Source: Tribonema minus
Lineage: Eukaryota > Sar > Xanthophyceae > Tribonematales > Tribonemataceae
Length of the DNA stretch: 64,000 nucleotides
Direction: 5' to 3'
Assembly: GCA_017506865.1 (NCBI GenBank)
Contig: JAFCMP010000445.1
Span: forward strand, 1 to 64,000
Within the stretch, counting starts at the first letter, position 1. Every line of letters begins with the position of its first letter. Shown one piece after another: positions 12,171-64,000 of the stretch. The translations under genes and the position numbers were made by a program. A model generated the notes under the pieces. The model was given only the letters and a program-made list of their open reading frames with translations. It was not told where the DNA came from and did no database searches.

Positions 12171-12174
12171 GGCA

Positions 12175-13812: not shown

Positions 13813-13829
13813 ATTGCGCGAGCGGAGCG

Positions 13830-16076: not shown

Positions 16077-16093
16077 CAAGACGGTAGCTTAGA

Positions 16094-16167
16094 AATGGCC
16101 GTTGCGTTGGGTGTTACAGTGTACACCACCAATGGCCGTTGCGTTGGGTGTTCCAGTGTACACCACC
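16094..16167. repeat. 37-bp direct tandem duplication
   Basis: Two adjacent copies of AATGGCCGTTGCGTTGGGTG...GTGTACACCACC differ at one position (TTACAG versus TTCCAG). They start 18 bp beyond the right end of the MITE-like element. Confidence 0.9.
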
Positions 16168-43263: not shown

Positions 43264-44394
43264 TTAGTGTCCTTCGCGCCTTGCAAGCTGCTTGTATCTC
43301 ACGTTGACCATGCCCGGCGTCTTGTGCGCGGCGCAATGCGTGGCGGCCTTACCCCCCGGCACGCCAAAGCTCGGCCACCTCGTGCACTTGACGCCCCCCT
43401 CGTCCATTCCGGCGCACTTCTTGTGCTTTACGTCGAGCATGCCCGGCGTCTTGTGCGCGGCGCAGTGCGTGGCCTTACCCCCGGGCACGCCAAAGGTTGG
43501 CCGCCTCGTGCACTTGGCACCCCCCTCGTCCACACCAGCACACTTCTTGCTTTTGACGTCGACCATGCCTGGCGTCTTGTGCGCCGCGCAGTGCGTGGCA
43601 CCCTTGCCTCCAGGCACGCCGTAACTCGGCCACCTCATGCACTCGGCGCCCCCCTCGTCCACACCGGCGCACTTCTTGTTGATGACGTTGACCATGCCTG
43701 GCATCTTGTGCGTGGCGCAGTACGTGGCGCCCTTATCCCCGGGCACGCCGAAGGTCGGTTGCCTCGTGCACTTGACACCCCCCTCGTCCACGCCAGCGCA
43801 CCGCTTGCTGTTGACGTTGACCATGTCCGGCGTCTTGTGCGCCGCGCAGTGCGTATCGGCCTTACCCCCGGGCACGCCGAAGGTCGGCCGCCGCGTGCAC
43901 TTGGCGCCCCCCTCATCCACACCGATGCACTTCTTGCTCGTGACGTTGACCATGCCCGGCGTCTTGTGCGCAGCGCAGTGCGTGGCGGCCTTCCCTCCGA
44001 GCACGCCGATGCTCGGCCACTTTGTGCACTGGTTGCCCCTCTCGTCGACACCGGCGCACTTCCTATACTTGACGCCGACGCTCTTCTTGTTTCTAGCGCC
44101 GACGGAAATTGCTTTGTCCGCCTTCATCCTGTCCACTGCGGCCATCACTCTTTGCACTTCCGCATGAGCCGGCGGCTGCTCCAGCATATCTGTGCCCATG
44201 ACGAGCGAGGGTGTCCTGGCTCTTCGCCGGGTCACAGGCCGCCCTTGTCCGCTGGACAGCAGCCTGAACCGCGCATCAACGCCAGGTGGTAGGACCGTTT
44301 GTTGCCACCACATACGAGGCGCAGCTAAGACTGCTGCTGCCTGCGGTGAGCGGCGTGCCGCGGTAAGAAAGCCTATTCTGTACGCGTAGTTCAT
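43264..44394 (-). CDS. EsV-1-7 cysteine-repeat protein, six repeats
   Basis: A single uninterrupted frame of 376 residues, with ATG at 44394 and TGA near 43264. After an ~100-residue basic, low-complexity N-terminus (possibly a targeting peptide) come six ~43-residue repeats (about 112-370). Each has the form C-x9-C-x15/16-C-x2-H-x12, with the recurring core PTFGVPGGK...THCAAHKTPGMVDV. This is the EsV-1-7 pattern (C-x4-C-x16-C-x2-H-x12), with a longer first loop. The family is best known from brown algae, including the developmental regulator IMMEDIATE UPRIGHT, and from some large algal viruses, with a patchy spread in other algae. Its biochemical role is unsettled; metal binding by Cys3His is likely. 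The repeats are very alike, pointing to recent internal duplication. No introns, unlike its neighbours. Confidence 0.8.
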   Translation of the reverse strand: MNYAYRIGFLTAARRSPQAAAVLAAPRMWWQQTVLPPGVDARFRLLSSGQGRPVTRRRARTPSLVMGTDMLEQPPAHAEVQRVMAAVDRMKADKAISVGARNKKSVGVKYRKCAGVDERGNQCTKWPSIGVLGGKAATHCAAHKTPGMVNVTSKKCIGVDEGGAKCTRRPTFGVPGGKADTHCAAHKTPDMVNVNSKRCAGVDEGGVKCTRQPTFGVPGDKGATYCATHKMPGMVNVINKKCAGVDEGGAECMRWPSYGVPGGKGATHCAAHKTPGMVDVKSKKCAGVDEGGAKCTRRPTFGVPGGKATHCAAHKTPGMLDVKHKKCAGMDEGGVKCTRWPSFGVPGGKAATHCAAHKTPGMVNVRYKQLARREGH

Positions 44395-45969
44395 CGATGC
44401 GTTCGTCGGCTTGCAGCCTGCACTCTACGACTGGTTGAAAGCTTGCCGTCAGGAGGAGGAAGACTTGACAAATATGAGATCGCTCATCTCTCCTCTAAAC
44501 TTCAACATGTGTTTGAAGTGGGGACGTGGACGTGGTGAATGTGCTTTGGGTAAATTTTACGCAAAGCGGTGTACAGATAGTGTGCTCTTCGGTACGCACG
44601 CCTTTTGGCCTATTGGCTGTGGCGCAGCGCGCGCGGCTGCACCTTTGGACCTTTGACTAGCAGCGTGAGCAGTGAATATGATTTGTAAGGACTCAGTGTC
44701 CAGCTGGCAGGAGGTCTCGGTTCTACAGGGACAAGCCGGTTGGGGAAGTGCCATTGCGCAATTTCGAGCTGACATACCACAGCCAACACGTGAGTTGCAT
44801 AGCATTTGCGGCACCACAATTCTGATATTACTGGGCTTGACAGTGTGAGCGCGCTATCGATTCGGAACAGAATGTGTCTTTAGCTGGCGACAACGTGCAA
44901 AGCCAATGCTCTTGCCCCATTACACCACCATTGCTCTCCATTGACATGTGCTAGTGGCCAGAGGATCAGAGCCCTAGTAGCAACGTTTACTGGAAACTAT
45001 GCAAGTCACGGGTTCAACACATCTGCGCAGTTGCTGCAGCGATCCGATTTCATGCATAGATGGTTCAAATCAAACATCTGAAGATGATTTCAGTGTAACT
45101 GAGCACGGCCATGTTCGTGACAGCAACGGCACTGAAGCTGCACTTGCATCGCAAGCAGTGGCACCTCCATTGGTGCACATGGGCCATGACAACGTGCGCG
45201 ACAAGGGCGGCATGTGAGCGTGTGAGCCGCGGTCCTGGCAGGTGCGCTTCTGCTATAACGCGCATGCAATGGCAACGTGTGATGCCGGCACGTGCGGCGA
45301 CGCCGGCGCTTCACACGTGTTTTGACTGCTAGCTGTGGCAGCGCTCTTGTCTATGCACGCGCCAGCTGGACAGGGCAGCAAGCAGGCCGACGCCGCCAAT
45401 AGTGCGGCACACCGGAATATTGGGCGCGCCTGTGCCGTTGTCAGCACGTGTCTGCCTGCTGCGCTGTAATCATCGAGTTGCTGTCGCGACTTGCACCAGC
45501 TAGCGCAGCTGCACTGCACTGATCAATGTTGACAAATTCGTCATCAGGCACCCGAGAAGGTCGGTGCCAGGCTCACGAGAACCTCCTGCAGTGGCTGAGA
45601 ACACGACAAAGGCATTGCAACAGACTGCAAACAGAAGCAAACCGACCAGCACACAAGCAGGCGGATGCTACGCAAAAAATACATGCTGTTATTGCTGCTT
45701 CATCGACGTCTTGTGCATGCAGCCGCATCTGAGATGCAAATGGCGACGCTCATGCGCAGTCTTCAAGTTGGTAGCAGGACTGCAAAACATCTCTCTCACC
45801 TCTGCAGCTACCGCGAGGCGTACCGGAGTAGGCTGCCTCTGCAGCAGGCGCTTGACACACGCACTCAGTCTGTGTGAGTAAGCAAGATTCAAAACCCTAG
45901 TGGTAGGGTTGAAGAGGGGGGCTGGCACCCTACATACGTGCGCATTAGGGTTAGCATGCGTCTTGCGTC
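44395..45969. other. Region without an assignable gene
   Basis: Short overlapping frames on both strands. No domain and no strong repeat. It probably contains the promoter of the EsV-1-7 gene immediately above 44394. Confidence 0.3.
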
Positions 45970-46842: not shown

Positions 46843-49800
46843 CTGTCGTCAGGGGGGCGGCAGCGGTGCGCGTGCGTGTGTCAGCGCTCAGCGGATGACT
46901 TTGAGATGAGTTCCGTGCTGCGGTGACATTGAGGAAGCACATGCGCTGCGTCGTAGTACAGTTTGGCTCCATGTTCAAGCTGTGATGCGTGCTACGCTCT
47001 TGCAGTTGAACTCAGACATGCCGACCACCGTTGCTCAAGGTAGCGGGTAGCAACCCACGTGTGTGTCAGCGCTCGTACAAAGTGCGCGGTGCTGCGCTGC
47101 GCACCGTGGAGAAGCACGTGCGTGCGCGCGTGCGCCGCACGCGGCGCAGTGCAGCTGTTGCCATCCAGCTGTGACGCACGAAGCTGTGACGCATGCCACC
47201 ATCACTAATCGGCAAGCAGCCAGCGCGAGCGCTGTGCACCGGTGTGCTGCGCTGCACGCCCACTGGAGACAACAGGCGCACCACTGACACAGGCGTGGCA
47301 GCGCTCGCCGCGTCCATGTGCTGGCTGAGCGCTGCTGACTGAATCGGCAGCCCTCAGCAGCGCTTACAGCGCCAACCGCGACGGCTGTTACATCAAAGTC
47401 AGCGCCAGTGCGTGTTGCGTGATGATATCTGCGAAAGCGTTTGAGACTTTCTGAGGAGCGTGACGCGCCGGGGATCTGCGAAAGCGTTTGAGACTGTTTG
47501 AGGGGCGTGCTGCGCCGGGCGGGGCTCTACTACCCTAAGCTGAGCGCTGGTGCAGGTGAGCTCTGCCGACTGATCTGGCAGTCGAGGCGTGACGCGCCGG
47601 GGACGCATGTTACCACTCTGGCGACTAAACAAAAAAGCAGAAAAGCAGCTGAGCGCTGCTGACTGCCGCATCAAAAAACTGATGTGTGCTGCTTGCATCA
47701 AAGCCGACACAGGTGCGTGTTCCATGATGATGTCTGCGAAAGCGCTTGGGCTTTATTAGATACATGACCTGCCGCGGGGGGGGGGGGGGGCTTTACTACC
47801 GTATATGCCCGAGTAAACGCCCGCGCGTTTCCTCGGGCATATACGGTATTCTAGAAGCTGAGGACTGCTGCAGGTGGGCGCTGCCGACTGACCTGGCAGC
47901 CGAGGCGCGATGCGCCGGGGACGTAGAGGTTGTCGCCAATGTCATCCAACTGCTCCTGCTCGCACTCAAAGACCTCGTTGAGCTTGCCATACCACTCGTC
48001 GGGGATCATGACGTGGCACGTGTTGCACTGCGGGCCCGCTCCGTACTGGCGCGCACAGGAGCGAGTGAGTGAGTGAGTAAGTGAGTGAGTGAGTGAGTAT
48101 ATGAGCCTTGCCGTACCACTCGTCGCAGATCATGACGTGGCACGTGTTGCACTGCGGGCCAGCCCCGTACTGGCGCGCGCAGGAGCGAGTAGCAGAGTAA
48201 GTGAGTGAGTGATTGAGTGAGTGAGTATATGAGCCTTGCCGTACCACTCGTTGTGGATCATGATGTGGCACGTGTTGCACTGCGGGCCCGCCCCGTACTG
48301 ACGCGCGCGAGTGAGTAACTGAGTAAGTGAGTGAGTGAGTGAGTGAGTGAGTGAGTGAGTATATGAGCCTAGCCGTACCACTCGTCGGGGATCATGACGT
48401 GGCACGTGTTGCACTGCGCGCCCGCCCCGTACTGACGCGCGCAAGTGTGTAACCGAGTAAGTGAGTGAGTGAGTATAAGAGCTTGCGATTTCACTCATCG
48501 AGGATCATGAAGTGGCACGTGCACTGCTGCTGTGCAGGAGATAGTCAGCGAGTAAGTGAGTGAGTCTTGGGGGCGACACTCCGTTAACCCTACACGTAAC
48601 CCTACCCCTGACCCATTGCACTCAGGCGCACAAAATTAGCGGCAATGAGCGGTGATGGGTTTAGAGGGTGACAGTGGGCCTGCGCACAGGAACATGCACA
48701 CAGTGACAGGCACACGCAGGCGGCACATGAGTACGCGCCTGGATGACAGGAGAGCCAAGTAGCAGATGAAGAAAGGCGTTAAAAGACAGTTACACGGGCC
48801 GCCGCCTGGTGACAGCAAGCTGTCGTTTACGGACGGACATGGCTGGGCAAAGAGCTCTGCGGATTCCACTGATTCACTTGATGACGGGATTGCGCCTGCT
48901 AGCGTGCATGCACACTGCGCCGCAGTGGTGTAGCGTTGAGTTAGCCTTAGCCCTAACCATAAGTGCGAGTTGATCAGCCTAACCCTAAGTGCGCATTGGT
49001 GCTGATCGGCAGTCATGGGGTGGCACAACGCAAGGCAGGCAAGCTAACCCTAACCCTAACCCTAATCCTAACCCTAACGGTACCACCAGCAAGATGCGCC
49101 CGATGGTTGCGCATACCTCACAACTTCATGTCAAAGCTAACATACATTTTGCCACTCAGCCACCGCTTCATGTCACCCAGCAGTCACACATGCGCGCCAC
49201 CGACCATCATGGGAAGGCACAACGCAAGGCAGGTACCACGTGCATGCATCTATGTTTCCTCATGCTACTCAACTGCTACCCAAGGTGAAGCTGAATTTGC
49301 AACTCAACGGCTTATGGACAGCATCTAGGTAGCGACGCTACATGCGCCCCATGCACTGACGACGACGTCAAGCTAACCCTAATCCTAACCCTAACCCTAA
49401 TTTTCAGCTGCTGAGTGGGCTCATATCCGCAGCTGGAGGCTCTGGCAGGTCAGAATCAGAAAAGTGAGCCTCCTTCCCCTGCCTTACAGCTAGAGTGATT
49501 GCACACAGCTACAAAGCTACGCCCGCCGCCTCCATGCCGTTTGTATACGTTTTAAGATCACCAACTGAAAAAGGCGTGCTGAATATGTAGCTGTGTGGCT
49601 GTATACATAAATGCTTTGTCCGCGCCTGGCGCTACTTCCACGCAGGCTGCGCCCGTTGGTTGCAATGTGTGTTGGTGTGTACGTGCCACGGCGCGGCAGG
49701 CACAAAGCTGGCGCCCATAATGCTGCCAAAAATGGCTCTATCGCCGACAGGCACCGAAGATTGCAGGCGTTCTTCAATGAGTGACGTGCCAGCAGTGAGA

Positions 49801-51099: not shown

Positions 51100-51390
51100 A
51101 TGGCATCGCCTCAGAAGCTCAGGCGCTCCATCTCGGCACCAGAGGTTCGCAGCAAAGCGGAGGGTCAGGCGCAGGGGCAGGATGCGGGCTCAGGGTATAG
51201 CGATGACGATGATGACCTGCTCAATGGCGCAATATCAGGCGGCGATGAGTTTGCTGACAGGCCAGTATCCATGGTCATCTGTCCCGCAACCGGGAACCTG
51301 GTGCAGTTCAGCTCGCAGTTCTTTGTGACGAGGCTGCTGGGGGTGCTGGGGGTGCGCGTCAAGAGGCACAGGGTACTGGCGATATCACAG
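51100..51390 (+). CDS. RME-8 exon 1
   Basis: ATG at 51100. 97 codons to the donor CAG|GTGAGT. An acidic/Ser-rich leader (YSDDDDDLLNGAISGGDEF), then SQFFVTRLLGVLGVRVKRHR matching the first strands of the RME-8 PH-like domain. An upstream in-frame ATG exists at 51055; the downstream one is preferred because the leader before it looks hydrophobic and unrelated. Confidence 0.75.
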
Positions 51391-54300
51391 GTGAGTGTCC
51401 ATAATACTCTGAAGCACTGCACTTGACCACTCGCAGCTGATGCCAGCAGTTGGTGCGAAGAGCAGCACGTGTGCAAGCAGAACATGCTTCATTGCTGTGC
51501 GCGCCGTGTACTGCTGCTGCTTTTGCAAGATGCAATGCCTTGCTTGCTGTCGCACAACCACGATGACCTCATTCACTGCAGCAACGACTGCTATCTACAA
51601 CTGCAGTCGCCACTCCCACGAATGCACTTGGCGCTAGCATCTTCTATGCCGGCTGCTCATTTCAATGCCCTAAGTACACGCAGCGTAAGATGCTGCTCAC
51701 AAGTTGAGGTAGGTGCATATGCAGCTCTCGGCGCGCATTGCCTGGCATGACACCAGAGCCACCCCTGCGCATTCGCCGGCGTACTTGTGAACTTGTGCTG
51801 AATAGAAAGCATTACGAAATATGTTTAAATGTTCTATGCGCTGTAGGTCTCCAGCTGCTATTCTCAACGCTTCTCGTTCTGAGGACGCGAAATAGCCCAG
51901 ATGGCAGATGTTGAGCGTACTACCAGAATCTACATGTACCCCGTGACAATTCGGCAGTGTGTCAGTGCGCGTTGACGATCACTTGTCAGTGCGCGTTGAC
52001 GATCACTTGTCAGTGCGCGCTGACAATCACGTGTCAGTGCGCGTTGACAATCACTTGTCAGTGCGCGTTGACGATCACTTCGACACACATTCAACAGCCC
52101 GCGCACAATGCCGCTGCTGCTGCCGCTGCCGACAACTGCATGCTGCTGCTGCTCTACTTCCGCAGGTCAGCGAGCGTTGACGCTCACGTAGGCATATGTT
52201 CAACAGCTTGCGTTTGCTGCCGCTGTTGCTACTGCTGCTCTACCCCCGCAAGGTCATGCTGTTGCTGCTCTACCCCTGCAGGTCAATGCGCATTGACGCT
52301 CACGTGGACACAAGTTCAACAGCCCGCGTACGTTCGCTGCTGCTGCCGCTGCTCTACTTGGGGTTAACCCTAACCAACCCTAACCCTACCCCTGACCCTT
52401 CCCCCGCAGGACCGCCTCTATGTGCTGCGCATCGACGCCTCCAAGCAGCCCAAGGTCTCCTACCCGCTCACCAGCTGCACGCTTGAAGTTCCGCACGACA
52501 GGGGGGCGCTGGGGGGGCACGGCTTCACCCTGCGCAGCGACGTGGGATCCGTCGACAGCGGCTACGAGTGCAGAGGGCGCGCGTCGCTGCTGCGCCACTT
52601 TGCTGAGGAGTCGGACAGGGTGGCGGGGACGCCGCTGCTGCAGCTGTTCCAGGTATACATGCATACCCAGCCAAGGGAGACGACAGAAAGTGCTGTTGAA
52701 GATAATGTTGAAGCACAGAAAGCAAAGAGTGTGCGCAAGACACAATGGAAAATACAGTTGAATGTAGTTTTTAAGTACAGATAGTGTGGTGTGAAGCTGT
52801 GTTCGCACGAAAAGTGTGAGCGCATGTGTGAATGTGCATAGGCAGATGCAATAGCGGAGAGCGTCACCAGTAGTGACTCACTACGGCACTTTGCCGAAGG
52901 GCACCCGCAAGAGGGTGCAGCAGTCCTTGACGATACACATTTACACACAGAGAAGGTGCAGCGCGATGAGTTCAGTGAGAAAGCACTCCCGAAGGCGGGC
53001 GGTGCAGTGCCAAAGGGTGGCGCCGCACAGCATCGCACTACAGTACTTTGTTGAGCACTGTCTTTTGCGTCCTTTCGTGACCAGATGACACACGCTCCGC
53101 GTAGAGATCACTGGTGTTACTGAGGCTGCCCTGATTATGGTCGAGCTTTACAGGGTATGTAGGCACATTTGATATGAGCCCCCCCCCCCCCCCCCCCCCC
53201 TCTCTGATTGTCTTAATCTTGCTCTATCCCATTTGCCTTTGTCATGCAAACATTACTTAGGCCGTGAAGCGGAGGCGTGGGGGCAGAGCAGATGTCGCAA
53301 CAGTGCTCCGCGTGGGTCCCACTTGCCTGGAGCGGCGCGGCGGCCCGGAGCTGAGCGTTGTTGCGCACAGGCAGTGCCTGCTGAGCGTGCAGCGGGTGGT
53401 GCTGAGGCGTGACGCGCCGCAGGAGCTGGTGCTGGAGTGCAGCGCGGGCCGGCGGCAGGTCTACAGGTATGTATGTATGCTTGTTTGTAGACAATTCAAT
53501 GTGCAGTCTTCTAGTGTGTTTAGAAGTGTATGATTGTGCCGCATGAGGACGCCCTTCGCCATGCAGCTGACCGGCGCCGTCCGTGCCTCCCTCTGATGCT
53601 CGAATCGGCATTGCATGTATGAGTACATGTACTTTGAAGTAGACGTCTACATGCACATACATGTACGGGTGCGTTTGTGTCAAACATGTTAAAACTGTGC
53701 GTATGCATGCGCGCGTGTGTGTGGCACGGCAGCTTGGTGCGTGCCTCGCAGGCCTCATTGCGATCGCTGGGTATTCTGCAGATGCTGCCAAATACTTGGA
53801 AGTACATGACAAGTGGATTGTTCATGTCTGCACACTCTCCGCTTTGCAGATGCACACGCTCCGCTGATAATGTACAATGTGCGTGTGTACGCATCAGCTT
53901 GCAAGGTCACGACTGCCTGGTTCGCGCCATGGAAGCGACACTGCGTGCGCTGGTCGTCATGCCGCCGCCACCATACCTGCATCAAAAATGTATCGCTACT
54001 AGATTATGTACCGCAAGAAGTCCGTCATGTATGCACACGCTCCGCTGATGAAGACACACCACAATGTGTGCACGCACGGCGCTCGCACTGCAGCTTGCAA
54101 GGACGTGATGGCTTGGTGCGTGCCATGGAGGCCTCGCTACGTGCGCTGGGTGTCATGCCGCCGAGACTATACATTTAACATGCATTACTATACATAGTAC
54201 AGTATGTTTTTCAAGAAGTCAGTCATGTATGCACATGCTCCTATGATGAATGTGCTTAAACTTGTGCATTTGTGACATCGCCGCCACAGCTTGCAAGGGC

Positions 54301-57300
54301 GTGACGGCCTGGTGCGCGCCATGGAAGCCTCACTGCGGGCCCTGGGAGTAATGCCGCCGCCGGTGGTGAGCCTATCTCCGAGAGAGGAGGAGGCTGAGCG
54401 CTGCGGCAGGGTGGCGGGCAGGGGCGCTTATTTGGTGTACATGCCCGTCAGAAAGTGGAGCCGCTCTCGGGATGCTTTCAAGGTGAGTCAGGAGCCACAG
54501 CCATCGCGGTACTTGTTTATATACGCAGAGGTATCATGTACCCACATCATATGTGTGGAGCCAGAGATATGATGTACCTACATTATATGTGTGGAGCTGG
54601 AGCCATTTAAATGCTTAACTATATATTTAGAGGTATGATGCCTACAATATACGTGTGTATATGTATGTATGTACGTGAGAGGAGCAGGCTGAGCGCTGCG
54701 GCAGGGTGGCCAGCGCATATCTGATGTAAATGCCTGTCAGGAAGTGGAGCCGCTCTCGGGATGCTTTTAAGGTGAGTCAAGAATCGCAGCCATTGTAATG
54801 GAAGTATATACCTAGAGGTATGATGTATCTACAAATTTATGCATCAAGCCGTGGCGATTGTGGTGCTGATTGATATCCTGCTGTGAGGTAAGATACCTGC
54901 TGATTACTATACTGCTATGAGGTATGATGCCTACAGTATGCATGTGTATGTATGTACGTGAGGGGAGGAGGCTGAGCGCTGCGGCAGATTGGCCAGCAGG
55001 GGCGCTTACCTGGTGTATATGCCCGTCAGAAAATGGAGCCGCTCTTGGGATGCAAGCAAGGCGAGACTAAGAGCCAATGTGACATAACACTGTGATTAAA
55101 CACGTGCATGTATGCACTTGTGTATGCATGTGAGACGGCAGCCAGTATGTGAGGTTAGCAGCAGCACCCTATGGACATTTTTGTGTGTCCAGGTTGCTTC
55201 AAAGATCGCACAACAAGTTCCTGGCAGTTGGTATTCGTGGGAGGTGAACCAGGAGGCTGAACTTGGGGTGCACACAGTGTGGCGGAAGAAGGAGCGAAGG
55301 CAGCCAATATTTCCATGTATGTATGCACAAATAGCCAATACCTGGGAATTACACGTGCGCAACTGCCATCGCTCGTTCGTACGCAGGACCGCATGCCGGC
55401 ACTTACCGCGGACTCGGTGCTGATGTGATGCTGTTACACATGTGTAACTGCCAGAACACTCGCTCGTACGCGGGACCGTGCGCTGGCGTTTACTGCGGAT
55501 GCGGTGATGATGCAATTCTTTTACACATGTGTTGCTGCCAACGCTCGTACGTAAATGCGCAGGACCGGGCGCTGGCGCCTACTGCGGACGCGGTTCTGAA
55601 AATCGTTTCCAAGCAGCACTTGAACTCACACATCTGCTGATGCGATTCTGTTACACACGTGCGTAACTGCCAACACTCATTCGTATGTATATACGCAGGA
55701 CCGTGCGCTGGCGCTTACTGCGGACGCGGTGCTGGAAATTGACCCCGACTGCGGCGACTGCGTCCGCGAGCTGCCGCTGGAGTGCGTGCTGAATATTGTT
55801 GATGACGCGGAGCGCTGCTGCCTGCAGCTGCAGCGCGCGTGGGGGGAGGCCGATGAGTACCACTTTCAGGTAAGCACATACATACTCTAAGTTTGACGGT
55901 GCGTGTGACTGCGTTTTCAGTAGGCACTCATGAATGGCACATGTTGAAGTTTGACACAGGCAGCATTACTGCATGTACGCGTGTTCACTATGGCACAATC
56001 GTGTGTGTGTCACGCGTTGAAGTATGCAGTGAAGTGTGCATTTGCATCGTCAATGACGCGGAGCACTGCTGCCTGCAGCTGCAGCGCGCGTGGGGGAAGG
56101 CTGATGAGTACCACTTTCAGGCAAGTACATGTCTCAGGATGGCTGTATATGTGTTTCGGGCATGATTTTTCTCTTTTTTTTGCGTCACATGTTGAAGCAA
56201 GGAGAAGTTAGCAGTTGATGATGCGGAGCGCTGCTGCTTGCAGCTGCAGCGTGCGTGGGGTGAGGCTGACGAGTGTCACTTCCAAGCATATACACCGTAT
56301 CTCAGGAAAGCTGTATGTATGCACAGCTGTACGGCAGCTTCTTGAGCGCTGCCGCATCAGGGTTGGACCTGGCCAAGCATCGGTATAGGTCAGACTCAGA
56401 TGTGGGGTCAGGTACACTCAGCGCTGTGGCCCGTTTGGTCATAGCTTTGGTCAGAGTTCAAGTTGAGGGTGGGGGTAAGGCATACATGATGTTCCACTCC
56501 TTGAGCTAGGGGCAGGCTCGCTGCGCTCCAGGTCTTTTGGCGCTACATCAACATAACTTCCCGTCGTTGACGTTGACTTCCAATGGTCAAGAGCAGAGCA
56601 TATTGCATGCAATGTAGTCAATGTCGCACAACGAGCTGGCTGCGGCAAATCGTGTTCACGGAGAGAACGTGGTGCTGTCTCAAACACACAGTCAAGGCAG
56701 GTGTTCTGAACAGACCACATGCACATGCACTTTGTGCTTTGACGCTGCAGCCAATGCGGCACATTTACAACCCGTGGCGCTGGTGTAACCTCGGTGTAAC
56801 CTCAAGCTGCATGCGCAAGTATCGCGTCACAGTTACAACACGTGTGAGTGGTGTAACTTAAACTGCCTCTGCTGTAACTTCAACTGCAGGACTGCCACGC
56901 CGCGCGGGCCCCCGCGCCCCCTCTCGCAGCCCTCATGGGCTTTGCACGAGGCCTAGAGCAAGACAGAGACGTTTCCGACCACCACGATGCTGCGGAAGAA
57001 GAAGGTTCCCAGCAGAACGATCCTTCGGACACGGAACCGGGCTCCTGCGGTTACTACGAGCTGGCGCTGCTTGCGGAAGAGTCCCGGGGACTGCTCCTGG
57101 CGTGCCTGCTGCGCATGGCTCAGCTGGCCAGCGGCGGGCGCTGCTGCCCCGTGAGCTTGCAGGTATTAGCGATGTGGACACGGTATGTATGTATTGGAGG
57201 CCATTGTTAGTGTGTCACGCTCCAGGGATTCTCTTCTTCTTCGTCGCGGCTCTGGACCGAGTGCAGGTCGCGCGTTTACAATGGTGGGGGCTGTCAGTTG

Positions 57301-57819
57301 AAGTTGTGTGCTCCTCGTAGAAGTTACGCCAGTGTCGCTCCTCTCTCGTAAGTCTCCCACTGTTTGTTGGCGCATCTCTGAAGGGCGTGCGTCGAGTGCT
57401 GGGACAGTTGCGTGCTCTCAGTTGAAGTTCCAGGCACTGCCTCCGCCGTCAGTGTGATTTAATTCGCAAACAGTGCGTATTGGCTTGAGCTGTGACATCA
57501 GCGCGAACTCCCCATCTTCCTCTGAGTCATACCGCACTCATAATTTGCCGTATGCATACTTCCAGGTTCATATTTACCACTGAACACGCGTTGCAGCCTT
57601 GCTCAGGTGTGGCAGGCATGCAAGACAGACACTACTTGACTCAACGAACTACTTGTTCTCCATGTCAAAGTTGGCCCGCATGTGTTTGCGAGTGCTGATT
57701 GAGGGGGCTACGCACAGGGCATGTACATATGTAGAACCTTTGCTGAGGAGGAGTTGAATCTGACTCTGAATCACACACTACACAAGTACATTTCCATCAT
57801 CCTCTCGTATATCTACCTA

Positions 57820-57853
<34 letters not shown>

Positions 57854-60800
57854 ATGCAGCCTGTGACCCCTGCGCGTTGCATACGCGCCCTTTGCGACCA
57901 AATGCTAAACTTGACTCTGACTCGCACGCTGCATACATACCCATCACTCCCTCGCATACCAACCCCCGGCGCAGCCCGTGACCCCCGTGCACCGCCTCGG
58001 CGACCACATGTGTACAATACTAGACTTTGATTGAGTTGCACGCTACATACATACACCTCAATCTCCTGCGTACCTACCTACCCCCCGCCGCGCAGCCCGT
58101 GACCCCCGCGCACCGCATGGGCGCCCTCGGCGACCACATGCACCCCGCCTATGTGGAGCTGCTGCTGCGGCGCATGCGCGAGCTCGACGCGCGCGACTGG
58201 CGCGACGCCGCGGCAGCGCTCCGCATGGTCAACAACACGGTTGCGCCGGGCGGCTTCAAGGGGTGCGGAAAGGTCCTCGTGCGCGGCGCCGCGGGGACCG
58301 TTCTGCAGCTCCTGTGCTCACAGGAGCTGCACGAGCAGGTAAAGTTTGTTGTGTATGGGTATGAGCAGGGGTGCAAAAGCGATGGGGCGGATCATCGAGG
58401 AGGCGCGCTTCACCGGGCCCCTGAGGCGGCACGCCAAAGCCCCGCAATATGGCAACATCTCATGGCCAACCGGTGCAGCTTGACGTGATAGACTGTCGGA
58501 TAGAGGCGGTTTTTGACACACCTGCTGCTGGCAGACTGTCCATCCCGTGAATTCTACATATGTGTGAACCGATGTCACCGTCACTGGGCTATTTTTCAGC
58601 AAAGGTGCTTATGCTTCTTGAACTGTGTTTCTGGGCGACGGTGCGCATGGTCCGTCTGGGAGCACATATGCATTAGAAAGGGGGTTTGAGTTTCTGTTAT
58701 TTTGTTGTTGGGCGACTGGTTTCATAAATTTTGTTGTTGGGCGATTGGTGCCATCTGGGAGCGCGTGTGCATTTAAAAGCGCGTTGAAGTGTCTTGAAGC
58801 ATGTTGCAAGGCGCGACTGGTGCGCAGGGGTCCGTCTGGGAGATCGTGTGCGTTAACAAGGGTGCTCATTTTTGCTTTAATAATGTTGTTGCTTTAACGA
58901 GGGCGTTCATGCAATTATATTGTTGGGCAATTCGTGTGCAGGGGTCCGTTTGGGAGCGCGTGTGCGTGCTGCAGGCGGCGCTGAGACTGCTCTGGGACAT
59001 GCCTGAAGAGCTGGCCAAGCCAGAGGCACAGGTGCGCACGCCTTCTATTGTAGAAGTACATACATGCGGTATACGTGCCTCAGACGTTTGCCATACGCGT
59101 ATGTGTTGTTGCGGTGCTTTATTCCGGTGCTTTATTCCACAACTGCTATGGTCATGTTTGTACTACAGAGGTAGTGCAAATAAGAAGTCTCATTTGCACT
59201 CAGAATGATGAGTGTCCTGAAGCTGTGATGCCTGCGTTGCAGTTATGGCACCTTGCAGTACCCTGCTGGCTTGCCTATTCGTACCACATAGATCATGCTC
59301 TATCACCACTCGCGCCACAGCACCGGATCAAATTGCCTGGGCTGCGCGCCCGCTGCGGCTGGCTGACTTAGTGCTACGTTGAAGTTGTGCTACTTGTATT
59401 GAAATTCTGGCACCCGTATTGAAATTCTGGCACCCTGAAGTGCCCTATGGTGATCCTAACGGAAGCCCATTGAAATTATGGCACCCTGAAGTGCCCTATG
59501 GTGATCCTAACGGAAGCCCATCACCTGTCTCGCTCTCACGTCAGAAACCGGCCTAGAAGCATTCACTGGACGCGCGCCAGGGGCTGCCTTGCTAGTGCTG
59601 TGTTGGAGTTTTCTGAAGGAAACGAGTCAAAAGATTGTAGAGCTCTAGTGTTGCAGTTGCCAAACCAGGTCGCTGCTGTGGCATCTTGTTGTTCTGACCT
59701 TGATCTCTCAGGGCGCCCTAGAAGCGTTGATCGACTGCTTGGACGCGCGCCAACCGCTGGCCGTGCAACAGTGGGCGGCCAGGGTCCTCCATGCGGCGCT
59801 CACGCAGCCCTGCAAGGGCAGCAGCGCGACCGACAGGCAGCTGAACGCGCCGGTGGCAAAAGCGGCATTCGGGCCTGCCCCTGGCAGGTAAGACACTTTT
59901 GTCGCACGATAACTGTCACGCATGCTGGCGTGTATGCCCATAAGTGCACTTCAGCCACTCAGTTAAGTTGTTCAGAGACTGAGACGTCCCTAGCAGGTAT
60001 GTGCACCCTTGTCATAGCTATGTGCACGCCTGCGCGCATGCTTGCTGGTCTCATGACTCTCTGCTGTGTGGGAGTACTGTACTCGCTCTTCACACGACGC
60101 TGCGCTCGCCTCTCGGCGGATGATGCTCAGCATGGCGTCTGACGAAGGGAACGCATTGGTCACATGTGGCATATGTCCAGTTTCTGTGCTGCGGGTGTGC
60201 GCCGACCGCCTGTTACGCTCAGCACGGCTTAGTTTAAGGGTAACCCTAACCTAACCCTAACCCTAACGCTTAGCACGGGGCTGGAGCGGGTATGCAGGTA
60301 TTGCACTCACTCTCCCTGCGCTCCATAAGCTGCTTATCTGGTGATGCTACGCTCAGCGCTGGACACATGTAGGTTGTGCTGTAGGTAATGTGCTCACTGC
60401 CTCTGCGCCGTGCTGCGTGCGCCGCTTGTCTGGTGGTGATGCTCAGCACGGCGCCGGACCCGCGCGGGCGCGTCCACCGCGTGCTGCGCGCGGCGTTCCC
60501 AGGCTGCCATGGCCTCGACGCCGGAGCGCACGGCGGCGGCGTCATCAGCGGCTGCGACGATGACACCAGCGAGGCGACGGCGGCGGACTGCTGCGCGCTG
60601 CCGCCGCCGCCGGTGGACGCCCACGCTGCGCTGGTTCAGGTGTGTAGTCAGTGGCAAGAGTGGCAAGAGCGAGAGTTGTGGCAATGGTGGCGTTGCTGGT
60701 GACACTGAGGGTTGCGGGGTTAGGGTACCTCACGACGGCGGCGGACCGCTGCGCGCTGCCGCCGCCGCTGGTGGACGCTCACGCCGCGCTCGTCCAGCTG

Positions 60801-62396
60801 TGTTGGGCGTAATGGGTGCTGGCGTTACTGGTCACAGTGGCGGTTAGGGTTACTTCTAGGGCTAGGACTGCTGCGCGCTGCCGCCGCCGCCGGTTGATGT
60901 TCACGCCGCGCTGGCCCGGGTGCGTTGGGCGCAATGGGTGCTGGCGTTTTTGGTCACAGTGGCGGTTAGGGTTACTTCTAGAGTGCCCGCTGCCGCCGCT
61001 GCCGGTGGACGTCCATGCTGCGCTGGTTCAGGTGTGTAGGCAGTGGCGAGAGTGGTGTGAGAGTGGTGGCGTCGCTGGTGACGAGTGAGGGTTGAGGGTA
61101 GGGCAACTGGGACGGATCTTTTTCATGACGGTGCCGGTAGTGCAGATGGTGACAGCGGCAGCGTCGTCGGCTCAGGGTTGGGGTAGCGTTAGGGTTAGGG
61201 TTAGGGTGAGGGTCACGTTAGACCGTGTTCAGCGATGGTGCTGATGGCATTGATGGCGAAGATGCTGGACGTGCTGCCGCCAGCCAGTATCTTCCTACCA
61301 GATCTGTACAGTCTTCATCAACTTACTTTGTGGAGTAGGCTGCCGCGCGCCACGGCCCGCGCTGCTGCGTCTAGGGTAAGGGTTAGGGTTAGGGGTAGGG
61401 GTAGGGTTAGCTAAGCCTAAGTGGTTGCCGCAAGTGGCGCCTCCCTCCCCACGTGGGCAGCTGGCGTGTCTAACCCTCCCTCTGACCCTAGGGCTTCGCC
61501 GCCTCTAACAGTAGCACTTCACCGCCTGCATCAGCAGCCGCGCTTTGGCAACCATTGTGCTGCACGAACCCTAACCCTGAACCTTATCCTGTTCGTGCTC
61601 GTGTCTCGGCCGGCGCTGCCCAGGATGGTCGGCAGCTGGTGGTTAACCCCAACGCTAACCCTCACTGGCTTCTTTGGGAGTACGCATGAACCTGGCACTG
61701 TGCTCAGGGTCAGGGTTAGGGTTAGGGTTACAACCTGTTCCTGCTCGTGTCTCAGAGCTGCTCGGCTGCAAGGACAAAGACCAAATCCTGACCTGACGCA
61801 AGCAATTCACCGCCACTATTCTTAGAACGTGACTGGCAGCGGTGTCTAATGAACCCCGTTACCCTAACCCTAATTGTGCGCCTGTGCATGCCTTAGCCGA
61901 CGCTGCTAGAGATGGTTGGCTGCTGGCTCGGGGAGGGCAACAGGGCGGCTAGCAGGGCTTTGGCGGACGCTACGTGGGGCGCTCTCACCCGGTGAGTACA
62001 ATGACTCTGACTTGCCTCGATTACTCATTCACTGTGCTATGCCGTCGTGCTGCGCCTGTTGGAAAATGCGAGGTTCCGTTGCCCGCCGTTGGCTCAGGCC
62101 AGCAAATTTAAGTCAACGACTTCGCACTTTCACTCATTGACTCGGCCACTCTGAGCAGATCACCAAGCCAGCACGCGTTTAGAATGCAGTCAGGATGGAG
62201 CGTCGTGCTATGACTCTGACTCACCAGTTGACTCCATGACTCACTCGCTGTGCTACGACGCAGGCGGAGCGTCGCGCTGCGCTTGTTGGGCAACGTGAGA
62301 TCGCCCTGCCTGCCACTGGCTCAGGCCAGCATGGCGCTGCTGTGCGGCATGGCGGCGAGCAGACGCCTGTCGCCGCCGACAAAAGCGCAATTACAG
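51100..62396 (+). CDS. RME-8/GRV2 (DNAJC13) homologue, N-terminal part
   Basis: Thirteen plus-strand exons with matching phases: 51100-51390, 52410-52652, 53261-53466, 54290-54482, 55193 to about 55316, 55699-55869, 56890-57162, 58096-58338, 58942-59031, 59712-59887, 60447-60639, 61897-61991 and 62264-62396. The product follows the N-terminus of RME-8/GRV2: a PH-like start (VKRHRVLAIS...RLYVLRID); RASLLRHFAEE; then GRADVATVLRVGPTCLERRGG; DGLVRAMEASLRALGV; ALTADAVLEIDPDCGDCVREL; ESRGLLLACLLRMAQ; VTPAHRMGALGDH; and STAPDPRGR. The ends of the armadillo-like repeats and the DnaJ domain lie beyond the window. RME-8 is a large endosomal co-chaperone that recruits Hsc70 to control retromer/SNX sorting and clathrin release. 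The WRG motif of the family's PI3P-binding start is not conserved here. Exon 5's donor is unresolved. Confidence 0.8.
51866..51955. repeat. Copy of the LINE-B tail region
   Basis: TTCTCGTTCTGAGGACGCGA and AAATAGCCCAGATGG...AGAATCTACATGT match the stretch at about 12211-12285 with gaps. It is a short dispersed repeat in RME-8 intron 1. Confidence 0.6.
51957..52083. repeat. Five 24-bp tandem repeats
   Basis: GTCAGTGCGCGTTGACGATC plus ACTT, five copies with A/G and C/T changes, in RME-8 intron 1. Confidence 0.95.
52084..52409 (+). repeat. Echo-like units before RME-8 exon 2
   Basis: Three ~110-bp units each contain TTCAACAGC(C/T)(C/T)GCG, a GCTGCTGCCGCTGC-rich block and an acceptor-like CTCTAC(T/C)(T/C)CCGCAG, near 52173, 52278 and the true acceptor at 52409. 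The middle unit holds a second acceptor-like variant. GTTGACGCTCACGT links the units to the 24-bp repeats. Confidence 0.65.
52363..52391. repeat. Interstitial telomere-like tract
   Basis: GTTAACCCTAACCAACCCTA and further CCCTA units immediately upstream of the exon 2 acceptor. Confidence 0.9.
52410..52652 (+). CDS. RME-8 exon 2
   Basis: 243 bases, phase 0, CCCCGCAG to GTATAC. Encodes DRLYVLRIDASKQPKVSYPL and SLLRHFAEESDRV, matching the GIVTLDP...TNSY and RASILTEL regions of plant GRV2. Confidence 0.8.
52653..53260. other. RME-8 intron 2 with a 22-base poly(C)
   Basis: No exon. A run of 22 C at 53179-53200 precedes the acceptor. Confidence 0.6.
53261..53466 (+). CDS. RME-8 exon 3
   Basis: 206 bases, ACTTAG to GTATGT, ending in phase 2. 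Encodes AVKRRRGGRADVATVLRVGP, then LSVQRVVLRRDAPQELVLEC. This parallels the RRRPVVLEVTP...IDP segment of animal RME-8. Confidence 0.8.
53840..54289 (+). repeat. Two echo copies of the 5' end of RME-8 exon 4
   Basis: Exon-like starts at 53898 and 54094, exactly 196 bp apart and 196 bp before the true start at 54290. Each keeps an acceptor CAG and encodes LQG(H/R)D(C/G)LVRAMEA(T/S)LRAL, then drifts into non-exonic sequence. The upstream intron piece (ATGTATGCACACGCTCCGCT) is repeated too. Confidence 0.9.
54290..54482 (+). CDS. RME-8 exon 4
   Basis: 193 bases. The first base completes a Ser codon from exon 3. Encodes LQGRDGLVRAMEASLRALGV, then SPREEEAERCGRVAGRGAYL and KWSRSRDAFK before GTGAGT. 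Both ends of this exon are echoed in its flanking introns. Confidence 0.8.
54670..55065 (+). repeat. Two echo copies of the 3' end of RME-8 exon 4
   Basis: GCTGAGCGCTGCGGCAG at 54688 and 54971 restarts the exon end (true copy at 54392). Copy one has an in-frame TAA (GATGTAAATGCC for GGTGTACATGCC) but keeps GTGAGT. Copy two keeps the frame but its donor is GCGAGA. Neither can replace the true end without damage. Confidence 0.9.
55193..55316 (+). CDS. RME-8 exon 5
   Basis: From GTGTCCAG. Encodes VASKIAQQVPGSWYSWEVNQ and HTVWRKKERRQPIFP, matching the KEAVG...GWWSVTRLRS region of GRV2. The donor is unresolved: GTATGT at 55317 leaves the wrong phase for exon 6, so another site or an extra small exon is needed. 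Confidence 0.6.
55381..55698 (+). repeat. Three echo copies of the 5' end of RME-8 exon 6
   Basis: GACCG(C/T/G)GCGCTGGCG(C/T)..ACTGCGGA(C/T)(G/T)CGGT-type starts at 55387, 55474 and 55563 precede the true start at 55699. Units of 87-136 bp also repeat the intron piece GTTACACATGTGTAACTGCC. Confidence 0.9.
55699..55869 (+). CDS. RME-8 exon 6
   Basis: 171 bases, phase 0. Encodes DRALALTADAVLEIDPDCGD, VRELPLECVLNIVDDAERCC and EADEYHFQ. It aligns with ALTETCLVERDPATYNI...LKPLGEV...NPQLFTIEF in animal RME-8, the clearest match in the gene. Confidence 0.85.
56049..56285 (+). repeat. Two echo copies of the 3' end of RME-8 exon 6
   Basis: Copies of the last 72 exon bases at 56049-56120 and 56214-56285. 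Both keep the reading frame (DDAE.CCLQLQRAWG.ADE.HFQ) with a few changes. Their donors are GCAAGT and GCATAT, in place of the true GTAAGC. Confidence 0.95.
56890..57162 (+). CDS. RME-8 exon 7
   Basis: 273 bases, phase 0, CTGCAG to GTATTA. An acidic insert (DRDVSDHHDAAEEEGSQQND) precedes ELALLAEESRGLLLACLLRM, which corresponds to the TERDSLLASLLDGVRASGN helix of animal RME-8. Confidence 0.75.
57163..57820. other. RME-8 intron 7, no exon recognised
   Basis: No coding similarity and no clear repeat in this part of the intron. Confidence 0.5.
57821..57849. repeat. Poly(C) run
   Basis: 29 consecutive C just before the first echo of exon 8. Confidence 0.95.
57850..58095 (+). repeat. Two echo copies of the 5' end of RME-8 exon 8
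   Basis: GCAG|CC(T/C)GTGACCCC(T/C)G starts at 57860 and 57975 precede the true start at 58096 (spacing 115 and 121). The second copy also repeats CTCGGCGACCACATG from inside the exon. The intron piece ACT(C/T)TGA(C/T)T...ACATAC is shared. Confidence 0.9.
58096..58338 (+). CDS. RME-8 exon 8
   Basis: 243 bases, phase 0. Encodes PVTPAHRMGALGDHMHPAYV, RRMRELDARDWRDAAAALRM and VNNTVAPGGF. Matches the TPTHKGQRWG...SLHLRFL...ANISYSG segment of animal RME-8. Confidence 0.8.
58630..58941 (+). repeat. Three echo copies of the 5' end of RME-8 exon 9
   Basis: TCCGTCTGGGAG-type cores at 58651, 58751 and 58831 precede the true 58945. Each is preceded by GGGCGA(C/T)TGGTGC-like intron sequence. Copies diverge after 15-25 exon bases. 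Confidence 0.85.
58942..59031 (+). CDS. RME-8 exon 9
   Basis: 90 bases, phase 0, TGTGCAG to GTGCGC. Encodes GSVWERVCVLQAALRLLWDM and PEELAKPEAQ, an armadillo-like helix pair. Confidence 0.7.
59414..59600 (+). repeat. 51-bp tandem duplication and exon 10 echo
   Basis: TTGAAATT(C/A)TGGCACCCTGAAG through CGGAAGCCCA occurs twice in tandem (about 59416-59520). At 59552-59590, GGCCTAGAAGCATTCACTGG and ACGCGCGCCA repeat the start of exon 10 (true copy at 59712). Confidence 0.85.
59712..59887 (+). CDS. RME-8 exon 10
   Basis: 176 bases, CTCTCAG to GTAAGA, ending in phase 2. Encodes GALEALIDCLDARQPLAVQQ and WAARVLHAALTQ, an armadillo-like pair. Confidence 0.7.
60115..60446 (+). repeat. Echo copies of the exon 11 acceptor with a telomere-like tract
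   Basis: GCTCAGCA(C/T)GGC-like starts at about 60128, 60216, 60270 and 60350 precede the true 60447. A CCCTAA tract (60236-60268) sits between two of them, directly joined to the CTTAGCACGGGG copy. Confidence 0.8.
60236..60268. repeat. Interstitial telomere-like tract
   Basis: Four to five CCCTAA units, one lacking a C, within the exon 11 echo array. Confidence 0.9.
60447..60639 (+). CDS. RME-8 exon 11
   Basis: 193 bases. The first base completes Ser from exon 10. Encodes STAPDPRGRVHRVLRAAFPG and ATAADCCALPPPPVDAHAAL. STAPD(P/S)RG is a landmark shared with plant GRV2. Confidence 0.8.
60740..61040 (+). repeat. Three echo copies of the 3' end of RME-8 exon 11
   Basis: Copies of the exon end (CTGCCGCCGCCG...GTGGACG..CACGC.GCGCT) finish at 60797, 60919 and 61031; the true end is 60639. 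Only the last keeps a GTGTGT donor. Short GGTTAGGGTTA pieces join the units. Confidence 0.9.
61188..61212. repeat. Interstitial telomere-like tract
   Basis: Three TTAGGG units plus a variant in RME-8 intron 11. Confidence 0.9.
61371..61410. repeat. Interstitial telomere-like tract
   Basis: About six TTAGGG-like units with G insertions (TAGGGG) in RME-8 intron 11. Confidence 0.9.
61567..61579. repeat. Interstitial telomere-like tract
   Basis: Two CCCTAA-type units (AACCCTAACCCTG), opposite in orientation to the 61371 tract. Confidence 0.75.
61600..61650 (+). repeat. Echo copy of the 5' end of RME-8 exon 12
   Basis: GCCGGCGCTGCCCAGGATGG and TCGGCAGCTGG (61607-61640) mirror the true exon start (61897), with the acceptor AG changed to GG. 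CCCCAACGCTAACCCTC follows. Confidence 0.7.
61705..61730. repeat. Interstitial telomere-like tract
   Basis: Three TTAGGG units preceded by a GGGTCA variant. Confidence 0.9.
61858..61873. repeat. Interstitial telomere-like tract
   Basis: Two CCCTAA units 24 bp before the exon 12 acceptor. Confidence 0.85.
61897..61991 (+). CDS. RME-8 exon 12
   Basis: 95 bases, GCCTTAG to GTGAGT, ending in phase 2. Encodes PTLLEMVGCWLGEGNRAASR and ALADATWGALT. Confidence 0.65.
62039..62263 (+). repeat. Echo copies of RME-8 exon 13 upstream of the true exon
   Basis: At 62044-62104 the middle of exon 13 is repeated (GTCGTGCTGCGCCTGTTGG, ending CGTTGGCTCAGGCCAGC), out of frame. At about 62193-62215 the start (GGAGCGTCGTGCTATG) is repeated, joined to intron sequence CTCTGACTCACC. 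Confidence 0.85.
62264..62396 (+). CDS. RME-8 exon 13
   Basis: 133 bases. The first base completes Arg from exon 12. Encodes SVALRLLGNVRSPCLPLAQA, SMALLCGMAASRRL and SPPTKAQLQ before GTATAT. The end is echoed six more times downstream. Later exons were not recognised before the window ends. Confidence 0.65.
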
Positions 62397-62439
62397 GTAT
62401 ATACGTATACCAAAAGCAGTATACTTCAAAGTAAGTCGG

Positions 62440-63105
62440 TGCAGCGAGCAGACGCCTTTCGCCGCCGACAAAAGCGCAGTTACAGGTATGTATGTATGCA
62501 TCATGAAAACAATTCAAGTCAGTGCGGCGAGCAGACGCCTGTCGCCGCCGACAAAAGCGCAATTACAGGTATGTATGTATGTTTACTGAAAACAATACTT
62601 CCGACGACACTGCGCCACGCAGTAGCATCATCTACCCATGAACCTGAACCGAATAGCATCTTTTTTTGAGAGCTCTGCAGACCTGCGCCACCGGCAGGTG
62701 CAGCCAGGAGTACATGTCAATGCAGCGAGCAGACGCCTCTTGCCGACAAAGGCGCAATTGCAAGTATACATGTGTATATACTGCAACACCATTCTTTTAC
62801 GAAACAATACAAGTCAGTGCAGCGAGCAGATGCCTGTCGCCACCGACAAAAGCGCAATTACATGTATGTATGTATGTGTACTGAAACATCGTTTTCAACA
62901 GTATGTGTCAGTGCTGCAGGCGCCTGTCGTTGCCGACAAAAGCGCAGTTACAGGTATTTACACCAGAACATCACTATCGGCAAGGCGTACCAGTGCTGCA
63001 GCTGTTGATTGAGTGTTTTTTTAGCTATCTAGTTATGCCATGCTTTAGCTGTGCGGCATGGCGGCAAGCAGACGCCTGTCGCTGCCGACGAAAGCGCAAT
63101 TACAG
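62440..63105 (+). repeat. Six echo copies of the 3' end of RME-8 exon 13
   Basis: GCGAGCAGACGCCT...GCCGACAAAAGCGCA(A/G)TTACAG ends at about 62486, 62569, 62764, 62863, 62956 and 63104, after the true end at 62396. Most keep a GTATGTATGTATG-like start of intron. Some keep the acidic-free frame SRRLSPPTKAQLQ, while others lose codons (62764) or the acceptor side. Confidence 0.95.
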
Positions 63106-63204
63106 ATGTGTATGCAGCGCTGAAGTATCATCACACAGCGCTCTTGTGTTCGAGGTTAGGGTCAAGTTGCAACAACCCTCGAGCACTGCTGTAGCGCCAC
63201 AGGA

Positions 63205-63226: not shown

Positions 63227-64000
63227 GGCGCTGCTACATTTCCACGCCAAGTGTGAAAGTCTACACAAGTGTTGTTAACCTTACGTGAATTATAGCCTTC
63301 ACTGAGCCGGCTTGAATGGACATGACGGTATTTATACTTCGAAGTAAATGTACGTGAAGTGGATGGTTGACCCATGCATTCGTAGCGTATACATTCCCTG
63401 TACGTATGGGTGCAGTCAAAGGGGGCGCCAGGGCAGGCGAAACATCATGGAGTATGTAGGCACGCGCAATTATCATAGGAATCGTCTGCGTCAATGTATG
63501 GGTGCGCCCATGGCGCTGAACACTGCTCTTGAGCCGCCGTTGCTGCCGCAAGGCGGGCCAGGGCATTGTAACGTACACCCTGTACTTTGAAAAATGAACG
63601 TGCGGCACTGAGATTTTTGGCACGTCTATGAGTTTGAGCACGGCTCGTCTGCCCTGTAGGTGTAGGGTTAGGGTTAGGGTTAGGTTAACCCTAACCCAGA
63701 GAACTCATTCGGCTTGCAGAGCTTGAAGGGCATGTGCGCATGGATGCAAGTAAAGAGCCAGCGGTACTGACCCATATTGCCGAGTGCTGCTGGCGCCGCG
63801 ATGCAGGAGGTGACCTGGTCACTCATCAGGCAAATATGTGAAGCTTATAGAGTAGGCATGTATGGACGCATTTCACTCATCACGCTGAGCGCTGCCGTCA
63901 CTGTTGTCGTGCCATCGCAGGAGGTGGCCAGGGCATCCAAGAGGCCAGGGCATGCTGTAGGGTAGATATGTATGTATGAAGTATGAGTGCACTTGAGACT
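63227..64000 (+). other. End of window: probable RME-8 intron with further echo-like pieces
   Basis: GCAGGAGGTG(A/G)CC and GGCCAGGGCAT pieces recur near 63427, 63548, 63803 and 63920, each partly acceptor-like. They look like echoes of an exon start whose true copy may lie at 63921 or beyond the window. No exon was assigned. Confidence 0.4.
63662..63698. repeat. Head-to-head telomere-like tract
   Basis: Three TTAGGG units run directly into inverted TTAACCCTAACCC. Inverted telomere repeats of this kind are typical of fusion or repair junctions. Confidence 0.9.

Follow-up and report, generated by a model that had tools for sequence, protein, structure and literature searches.

We analysed a 64-kb window of DNA from Tribonema minus, a yellow-green alga (Xanthophyceae) of the stramenopiles. 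The window is the whole stretch under study and forms the first 64 kb of the 1,973,627-bp contig JAFCMP010000445.1 (hereafter C445) within a 158-Mb eukaryotic assembly. From position 51100 it carries the 5′ part of a gene for an RME-8 homologue (Pfam RME-8_N match, E=6.3e-7), which spans 51100 to about 95840 on C445 and is deposited as JKP88DRAFT_325533 (2951 aa; hereafter P0121). The introns of this gene contain short copies of the ends of their neighbouring exons. Twelve exons with GT-AG introns and an open frame were rebuilt by hand within the window (Table 1); the first-pass annotation had recognised thirteen. In the rebuilt model exon 13 starts at 64045, just past the window end. P0121 maps onto the hand-built exons with extra micro-exons between them, and its exons 3 and 6 begin further downstream (about 53333 and 56932) than in the hand-built model.

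Copies of exon ends in the RME-8 introns

Comparison of the locus with itself (self-BLAST of 51.0-64.0 kb) revealed copies of exon ends in the introns, as the first-pass annotation had described. The terminal 70 bp of the exons were scored in their own intron, with the scores of these queries in the remaining introns of the gene as the control (264 comparisons, maximum score 27). The own-intron score exceeded all 264 controls at 10 of the 24 ends tested in exons 1-13, with a range of 31 to 121. Both ends were affected in exon 4 (head 85, tail 91), exon 5 (head 62, tail 121) and exon 12 (head 54, tail 101), the head alone in exons 7 (45), 8 (37) and 13 (31), and the tail in exon 10 (100), whose head reached 34 only when the query spanned the junction. 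The heads of exons 9 and 11 gave weak signals (score 26 each, P 0.019). Seven of the 13 exons thus stand above all controls, and the earlier figure of at least eight echoed exons is reached only if the weak cases count. Echo-like units that had been described upstream of exon 2 were not significant at the DNA level (score 21, P 0.19), and exons 3 and 6 of the hand-built model had no echo. Many ends were copied repeatedly, with six tail copies for exon 12, three head and two tail copies for exon 5, two of each for exon 4 and three tail copies for exon 10. Heads as well as tails are affected, and the pattern is a recurrent property of boundaries and not one duplicated exon, in line with the first description of it.

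Introner-like or other transposed elements could in principle have placed such copies in introns that are numerous and repeat-rich. The exon ends of RME-8, however, resemble sequence in their own intron but not in the remaining introns of the gene, and a 1001-bp probe (intron 2-exon 3-intron 3) hit just its own location and two places nearby in a genome search that skipped very common words; we give an origin of this kind hardly any credence.

Interstitial TTAGGG-type repeats also occur in an RME-8 intron (61174-61213 and 61372-61410) and upstream of the gene (49044-49078).

Table 1. RME-8 exons in the window and copies of their ends in the adjoining introns
Feature	Position	Strand	Basis and remarks
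RME-8 5′ part, exons 1-6 of 12	51100-51390, 52410-52652, 53261-53466, 54290-54482, 55699-55869, 56890-57162	+	open frame, GT-AG, Pfam RME-8_N, P0121 mapping
RME-8 5′ part, exons 7-12 of 12	58096-58338, 58942-59031, 59712-59887, 60447-60639, 61897-61991, 62264-62396	+	as for exons 1-6
Exon 4, far head copy	53898-53969	+	53895-53969 vs 54287-54361, 84%; junction 392 bp upstream
Exon 4, near head copy	54094-54163	+	self-BLAST; junction 196 bp upstream
Exon 4, near tail copy	54668-54771	+	self-BLAST; +289; GTGAGT retained
Exon 4, far tail copy	54951-55060	+	self-BLAST; +578; donor GC
Exon 5, far head copy	55387-55422	+	TRF (Tandem Repeats Finder), self-BLAST, P0121 mapping; micro-exon in deposited model
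Exon 5, middle head copy	55474-55509	+	TRF, self-BLAST
Exon 5, near head copy	55563-55603	+	self-BLAST, P0121 mapping; micro-exon in deposited model
Exon 5, near tail copy	56053-56120	+	self-BLAST 93.6%; donor GC; part exon in deposited model
Exon 5, far tail copy	56214-56285	+	self-BLAST
Exon 7, far head copy	57860-57905	+	self-BLAST
Exon 7, near head copy	57975-58010	+	self-BLAST
Exon 8, head copy	58828-58853	+	self-BLAST
Exon 10, near tail copy	60733-60797	+	TRF, self-BLAST
Exon 10, middle tail copy	60865-60919	+	TRF, self-BLAST
Exon 10, far tail copy	60984-61031	+	self-BLAST
Exon 12, head copy	62050-62104	+	approximate limits; 62001-62104 vs 62210-62331, 68%
Exon 12, tail copy 1	62441-62485	+	TRF, self-BLAST
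Exon 12, tail copy 2	62524-62568	+	self-BLAST; 45/45 exon bases identical
Exon 12, tail copy 3	62722-62763	+	self-BLAST
Exon 12, tail copy 4	62819-62863	+	self-BLAST
Exon 12, tail copy 5	62916-62953	+	self-BLAST
Exon 12, tail copy 6	63048-63105	+	self-BLAST 94.8%; donor lost
Exon 13, head-region copy	63878-63938	+	array scan, own-intron scoring (exon at 64045); 18/61 bp exonic

Occurrence of the copies in other genes

A wider sample was drawn from C445 and 11 scattered pieces elsewhere in the assembly (L0xx), using a purpose-built gene finder seeded on RME-8 that applied tightened penalties and modelled both strands jointly. It recovers all 12 hand-built exons, but was seeded with them; a first, looser version was rejected since it produced many tiny exons. 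Some exons predicted in the later part of RME-8 (for example 84833-84866) are themselves copies. The test of exon-terminal 50 bp described below took in C445 models ending at 20 kb or beyond, models of at least two exons with a score of at least 60, and exons of at least 90 bp that were not weakly scored; no model in L012, L015 or L017 passed. The array, identity, codon, age-matched, simulation-comparison and per-gene analyses were further confined to C445 models ending at 50 kb or beyond, and left out L007 and L013 (no copy at 24 exon ends earlier) as well as models with fewer than three or four exons. The age-matched windows also left out a retroelement at 102-112 kb. These omissions raise the reported fractions.

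About 37 kb past the end of RME-8, C445 carries an H+-ATPase gene whose model agrees with a deposited T. minus protein (P0001) at 96% identity across the entire 786-residue query. The last two predicted exons are absent from P0001, and the predicted exon start at 140450 is about 45 bp late relative to it. Pooling of 18 predicted models, among which RME-8 counts as three and H+-ATPase as two, gave copies at 52 of 176 scored exon ends: 29/72 in RME-8, 16/29 in H+-ATPase and 4/26 in the other C445 models. The total for C445 was therefore 49/127, against 3/49 in the six other sampled pieces. Genes on two other contigs also show the pattern, and several others have it hardly or not at all. For instance, in a gene in L008 that reads as aminopeptidase-like, with introns of 357-820 bp beside its scored exons, one end out of 14 bore a copy, and in L011, where the introns of the models measure 688-1861 bp, five ends were free of copies. 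The phenomenon is not restricted to one gene, yet it is very uneven.

The recurrence in the unrelated H+-ATPase gene argues against an assembly artefact, as do the differences of most copies from the exon and from one another and the 1.97-Mb length of the contig; misassembly is thus a very improbable source of the copies.

Structure of the copies and proposed mechanism

The copies comprise an exon end, the splice site and some intron, as first described. The pooled sample held 39 head copies and 43 tail copies, so that 5′ and 3′ exon boundaries are both affected. In the 78 usable copies out of 82, identity to the source was 0.85 on the exon side and 0.71 on the intron side; randomly chosen intron positions gave 0.58. 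The copy nearest to the true junction lay 77-336 bp away (median 145.5; 52 exon ends in all scored genes), and 107-199 bp away at 41 of the 52 ends; the first-pass annotation had noted periods of about 80-300 bp. Tail copies kept GT in 25 of 39 cases, with GC in six more, and head copies kept AG in 27 of 36; they do supply splice-like sites, as that annotation had stated. Its suggestion of longer introns is likewise borne out, in that introns bearing a copy had a median length of 694 bp (n=44) versus 450 bp (n=72; P 6e-4), although longer introns offer more room for copies.

We consider it probable that these are mirage-type arrays (see below) built by serial local tandem duplications that cross a splice junction. 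A local tandem duplication, usually of about 110-200 bp, would straddle an exon-intron junction. The junction still joined to the body of the exon would remain in use, and the displaced copy, with its exon end, splice site and piece of intron, would become intron and decay largely as non-coding DNA. Each copy would have arisen by tandem duplication at the DNA level, and repeated events at one junction would generate an array and a longer intron, newer copies presumably pushing older ones outward. The unit near 145 bp may reflect a nucleosome- or Okazaki-sized event, which is a guess. Replication slippage, R-loops and double-strand break (DSB) repair, suggested in the first-pass annotation, would be candidate causes.

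Exon ends compared with exon and intron interiors

Of 207 exon ends, 46 had their terminal 50 bp copied in the neighbouring intron, as compared with 0/207 in shuffled introns, 5/154 for mid-exon segments (Fisher P 7e-8) and 24/207 for mid-intron segments (P 0.006); intron segments beside the junction were copied in 28/207 cases. Local arrays showed the same tendency. The 13 models contain 60 arrays, of which 53 touch a predicted exon and seven do not, where rotation expects 33.9 +/- 3.2; of the 19 arrays of at least 90% identity, 17 touch one (one of these 17 within retroelement sequence). Offsets shorter than about 60 bp are not captured by the array comparison with BLAST, and pooled arrays alone were judged biased as proof of a hotspot; age-matched windows and simulations were therefore added. 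At age-matched thresholds and with offsets of at least 25 bp, a young copy was found for 20 of the 154 windows of 40 bp at exon ends, for 38 of the 1227 placed in introns and for none of the 34 in mid-exon positions. In this sample, exon ends are copied more often than mid-exon and intron controls, as had been expected at the outset, and part of the excess is ascertainment.

A few simple simulations were run on genes in which tandem duplications fell uniformly, introns evolved neutrally, exons underwent silent change and small indels occurred. Under such placement, with introns decaying 1-4 times as fast as exon-derived bases, a fraction of 0.37-0.64 of the arrays touched an exon, and the observed fraction is 0.88. 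When intron-only events were cut to 0.3 or 0.1, the fraction rose to 0.66-0.94. This suggests that junction-crossing duplications may be favoured 3-10 fold over intron-only ones, with the simulations serving as support and not as proof. That splice junctions are preferred sites of roughly nucleosome-length tandem duplication, and that this is a main engine of intron growth in the lineage, strong in some genes or chromosome regions and weak elsewhere, is a tentative proposal that we hold to be possible but doubtful.

Observations against the account and alternatives

Several observations weigh against serial duplication preferring the junction followed by neutral decay. Copy density differs strongly between genes. 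No simulated setting fit every statistic; for young copies the lowest ratio of intron to exon-end rates was 0.41, whereas about 0.24 was observed. TRF gives five intron-only repeats (period 13-51 bp) in the RME-8 introns of the window, outside the 60 arrays. Intron windows adjoining exon ends, which should have been duplicated along with those ends, were rarely seen copied, at 6/176 (34/40) or, with a looser cut, 12/176 (31/40), which implies that intron copies are poorly detectable and that the junction preference may be partly ascertainment. In young copies the intron side has diverged further (identity 0.77, n=16) than equal-rate simulations give (0.87-0.92). Decay with distance, asserted in the first-pass annotation, is a trend only: 21 ends had at least two copies, and among the 19 with enough shared sites the nearest copy resembled the exon more than the following one did in 12 cases, with three ties and four reversed. 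Finally, the differences between exon and copy are more silent than expected, with a ratio of replacement (dN) to silent (dS) change of 0.31 where about 0.5 is expected for a neutral copy of a constrained exon. A third-position skew also appears in differences between copies (78, 76 and 182 at codon positions 1, 2 and 3; 182/336 third) and in those unique to the near copy (17, 12 and 30; 30/59 third). Pure neutral decay does not predict this skew unless the exon changed between copying events.

Poor detection of intron copies leads to the alternative of uniform tandem duplication, in which only copies of exon ends stay recognisable: selection freezes one partner, both members of an intron pair decay and duplications within exons are purged. 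Counts favour exon ends because the sequence of an exon is preserved, whereas in an intron both copies are free to change. Judged from the adjoining windows, copies in introns may be detected a quarter to half as efficiently; a correction of this size brings the rate for the intron interior near that for exon ends, and the short-period intron-only repeats also fit this alternative. On the other hand, uniform simulations gave 0.49-0.64 exon-touching arrays even with introns decaying 2-4 times faster, short of the observed fraction, and almost all arrays of high identity touch a predicted exon. We regard uniform duplication as rather unlikely.

The divergence of the copies bears on two further alternatives. 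Exon-copy differences fell at codon positions 1, 2 and 3 in the numbers 106, 101 and 243, giving dN 0.073 and dS 0.232 (confidence interval of the ratio 0.24-0.40). Seven in-frame stops were present, with 6.6 expected at the replacement rate or 10.6 at half the silent rate. Displaced copies thus appear to decay mostly like non-coding DNA, with an excess of silent change left over. An early impression that the exon parts are conserved far beyond neutral expectation was rejected after tests of codon positions, in-frame stops, differences between copies and simulated data; the silent excess is all that remains of it. Differences are more frequent at C and G inside CpG than at the remaining C and G, and by hand reckoning base composition narrows the silent excess, part of which remains. 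This remainder could stem from exchange between diverged haplotypes or from some coding use.

In the first of these, unequal exchange or conversion between diverged haplotypes would have made silent and intron differences partly older than the duplication itself. The silent excess agrees with such exchange, as does the stronger divergence of young copies on their intron side than on their exon side, and amphioxus arrays are reported to vary in number between haplotypes. As composition accounts for part of the silent excess, we think this explanation unlikely.

In the second, the copies would be functional, as alternative micro-exons or as decoy splice sites under selection. Third positions account for most of the differences, both from the exon and among copies, GT or AG is kept at 52 of 75 copies, and where the exon was built by hand the four gaps in its copies each have a length divisible by three. 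Outside the hand-built exons, however, 20 of 22 gaps do not, and stops are present at about the expected number. The deposited models point both ways. P0121 includes many copies as in-frame micro-exons (for example 55387-55416, 55563-55592 and 56076-56123), and a test for internal repeats (7-of-9) returned 16 rows for it, some overlapping. P0002, an H+-ATPase paralogue on another contig known here from its deposited protein alone, has two in-frame internal repeats, which would fit the presence of copies in its gene too. In contrast, P0001 skips the copies and has no internal repeats by the same test, which counts in favour of displaced relics. To our knowledge, RME-8 homologues have no need of such peptides, a point we also set against function. 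The internal repeats of P0121, many of which correspond to exon-end copies in introns, and those of P0002 are probably annotation artefacts or real micro-exons, and we judge selection on the copies to be improbable. Deposited Tribonema gene models can hold unproven micro-exons, and caution in using them is warranted.

Relation to known systems

The first-pass annotation knew of no named phenomenon that fits, a statement that does not hold. The 'mirages' of amphioxus (lancelet) fit closely. Their units are reported to span the exon boundary, at 5′ and 3′ ends alike, with many keeping AG/GT, and to measure about 150-160, 157, 108, 60 or 10-72 bp. Splicing is reported there as normal, somatic instability is mentioned and mirages are proposed as a source of new introns. 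Cases of 60 and 108 bp are described for lancelet PGBD5, together with citations of TnC and Adh (PMC3902484). Measured against these accounts, the T. minus copies are mirage-like in three tested features: a boundary-spanning unit, although the intron part is weaker in T. minus (0.71 against a 0.58 baseline); occurrence at both 5′ and 3′ boundaries; and unit size, although the upper tail in T. minus exceeds the published units listed above. They differ in their host, a stramenopile alga, in their density in RME-8 and H+-ATPase and in sometimes occupying both ends of one exon, and are known here from the DNA of a single assembly.

The elementary event is documented in potato. A tandem duplication crossing an intron-exon boundary of an RNA-dependent RNA polymerase (RdRp) gene made a new intron, the copy being spliced as an exon with RNA support (PMC4974935). 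The 3′ side of the intron and the 5′ side of the exon were duplicated in tandem, as in T. minus; the potato case is one event with an exonic copy, whereas T. minus has many events, with copies that are intronic in the hand-built models and P0001. Intron gain by tandem duplication of AGGT also alters gene structure, but there an exonic unit makes a new intron, while the T. minus unit includes a junction that is already there and extends the intron behind it. We rejected AGGT gain as an explanation, since the examined copies contain the existing junction and many also contain intron DNA. Introners, by definition one element present across many unrelated genes, likewise change intron content in bulk (PMC9860276). 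The T. minus copies each match their own exon, and the one 1001-bp probe gave local matches only. Among the matches listed in a search of titles and abstract openings in the open-licence literature, we found no report of such copies in algae or stramenopiles.

Other features of the sampled sequence

On the reverse strand of the window, a tandem repeat of 129 bp (43 codons) at 43267-44424 encodes six cysteine-rich motifs of the EsV-1-7 type. A 134-bp array of 3.9 copies at 47979-48527 overlaps the predicted first exon of this EsV-1-7 gene and may be another exon echo. A retroelement with long open frames occupies 2376-17683, also on the reverse strand, with a reverse transcriptase domain (RVT_1) in the frame 2376-5714; protein segments similar to it by eye occur at C445:102467-111661, C445:130087-130990 and L016:3906-6417. 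A repeat of 94.8-99.6% identity is present at four places in the window, one of them inverted (2291-2882, 29284-29716, 32145-32740 and 39689-39965), and the first of these places overlaps one end of the open frame with the reverse transcriptase domain. Elsewhere, L015:3858-6758 (+) is predicted to encode, in two exons, a protein that by eye resembles a giant-virus-type primase-helicase, and the GC fraction of L007, at the start of contig C1, is 0.71 in the first 10 kb compared with 0.52 at 200 kb of C1.

Implications

As far as the literature searches go, the copies are new for the lineage and unusually dense. In the literature consulted, mirages are reported from lancelets only, and their dense occurrence in a yellow-green alga, far removed from lancelets, suggests a mutational process that is independent or much wider. 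The proposed process would lengthen introns and offer raw material for new exons and introns, and T. minus provides a concrete, testable system for intron growth.

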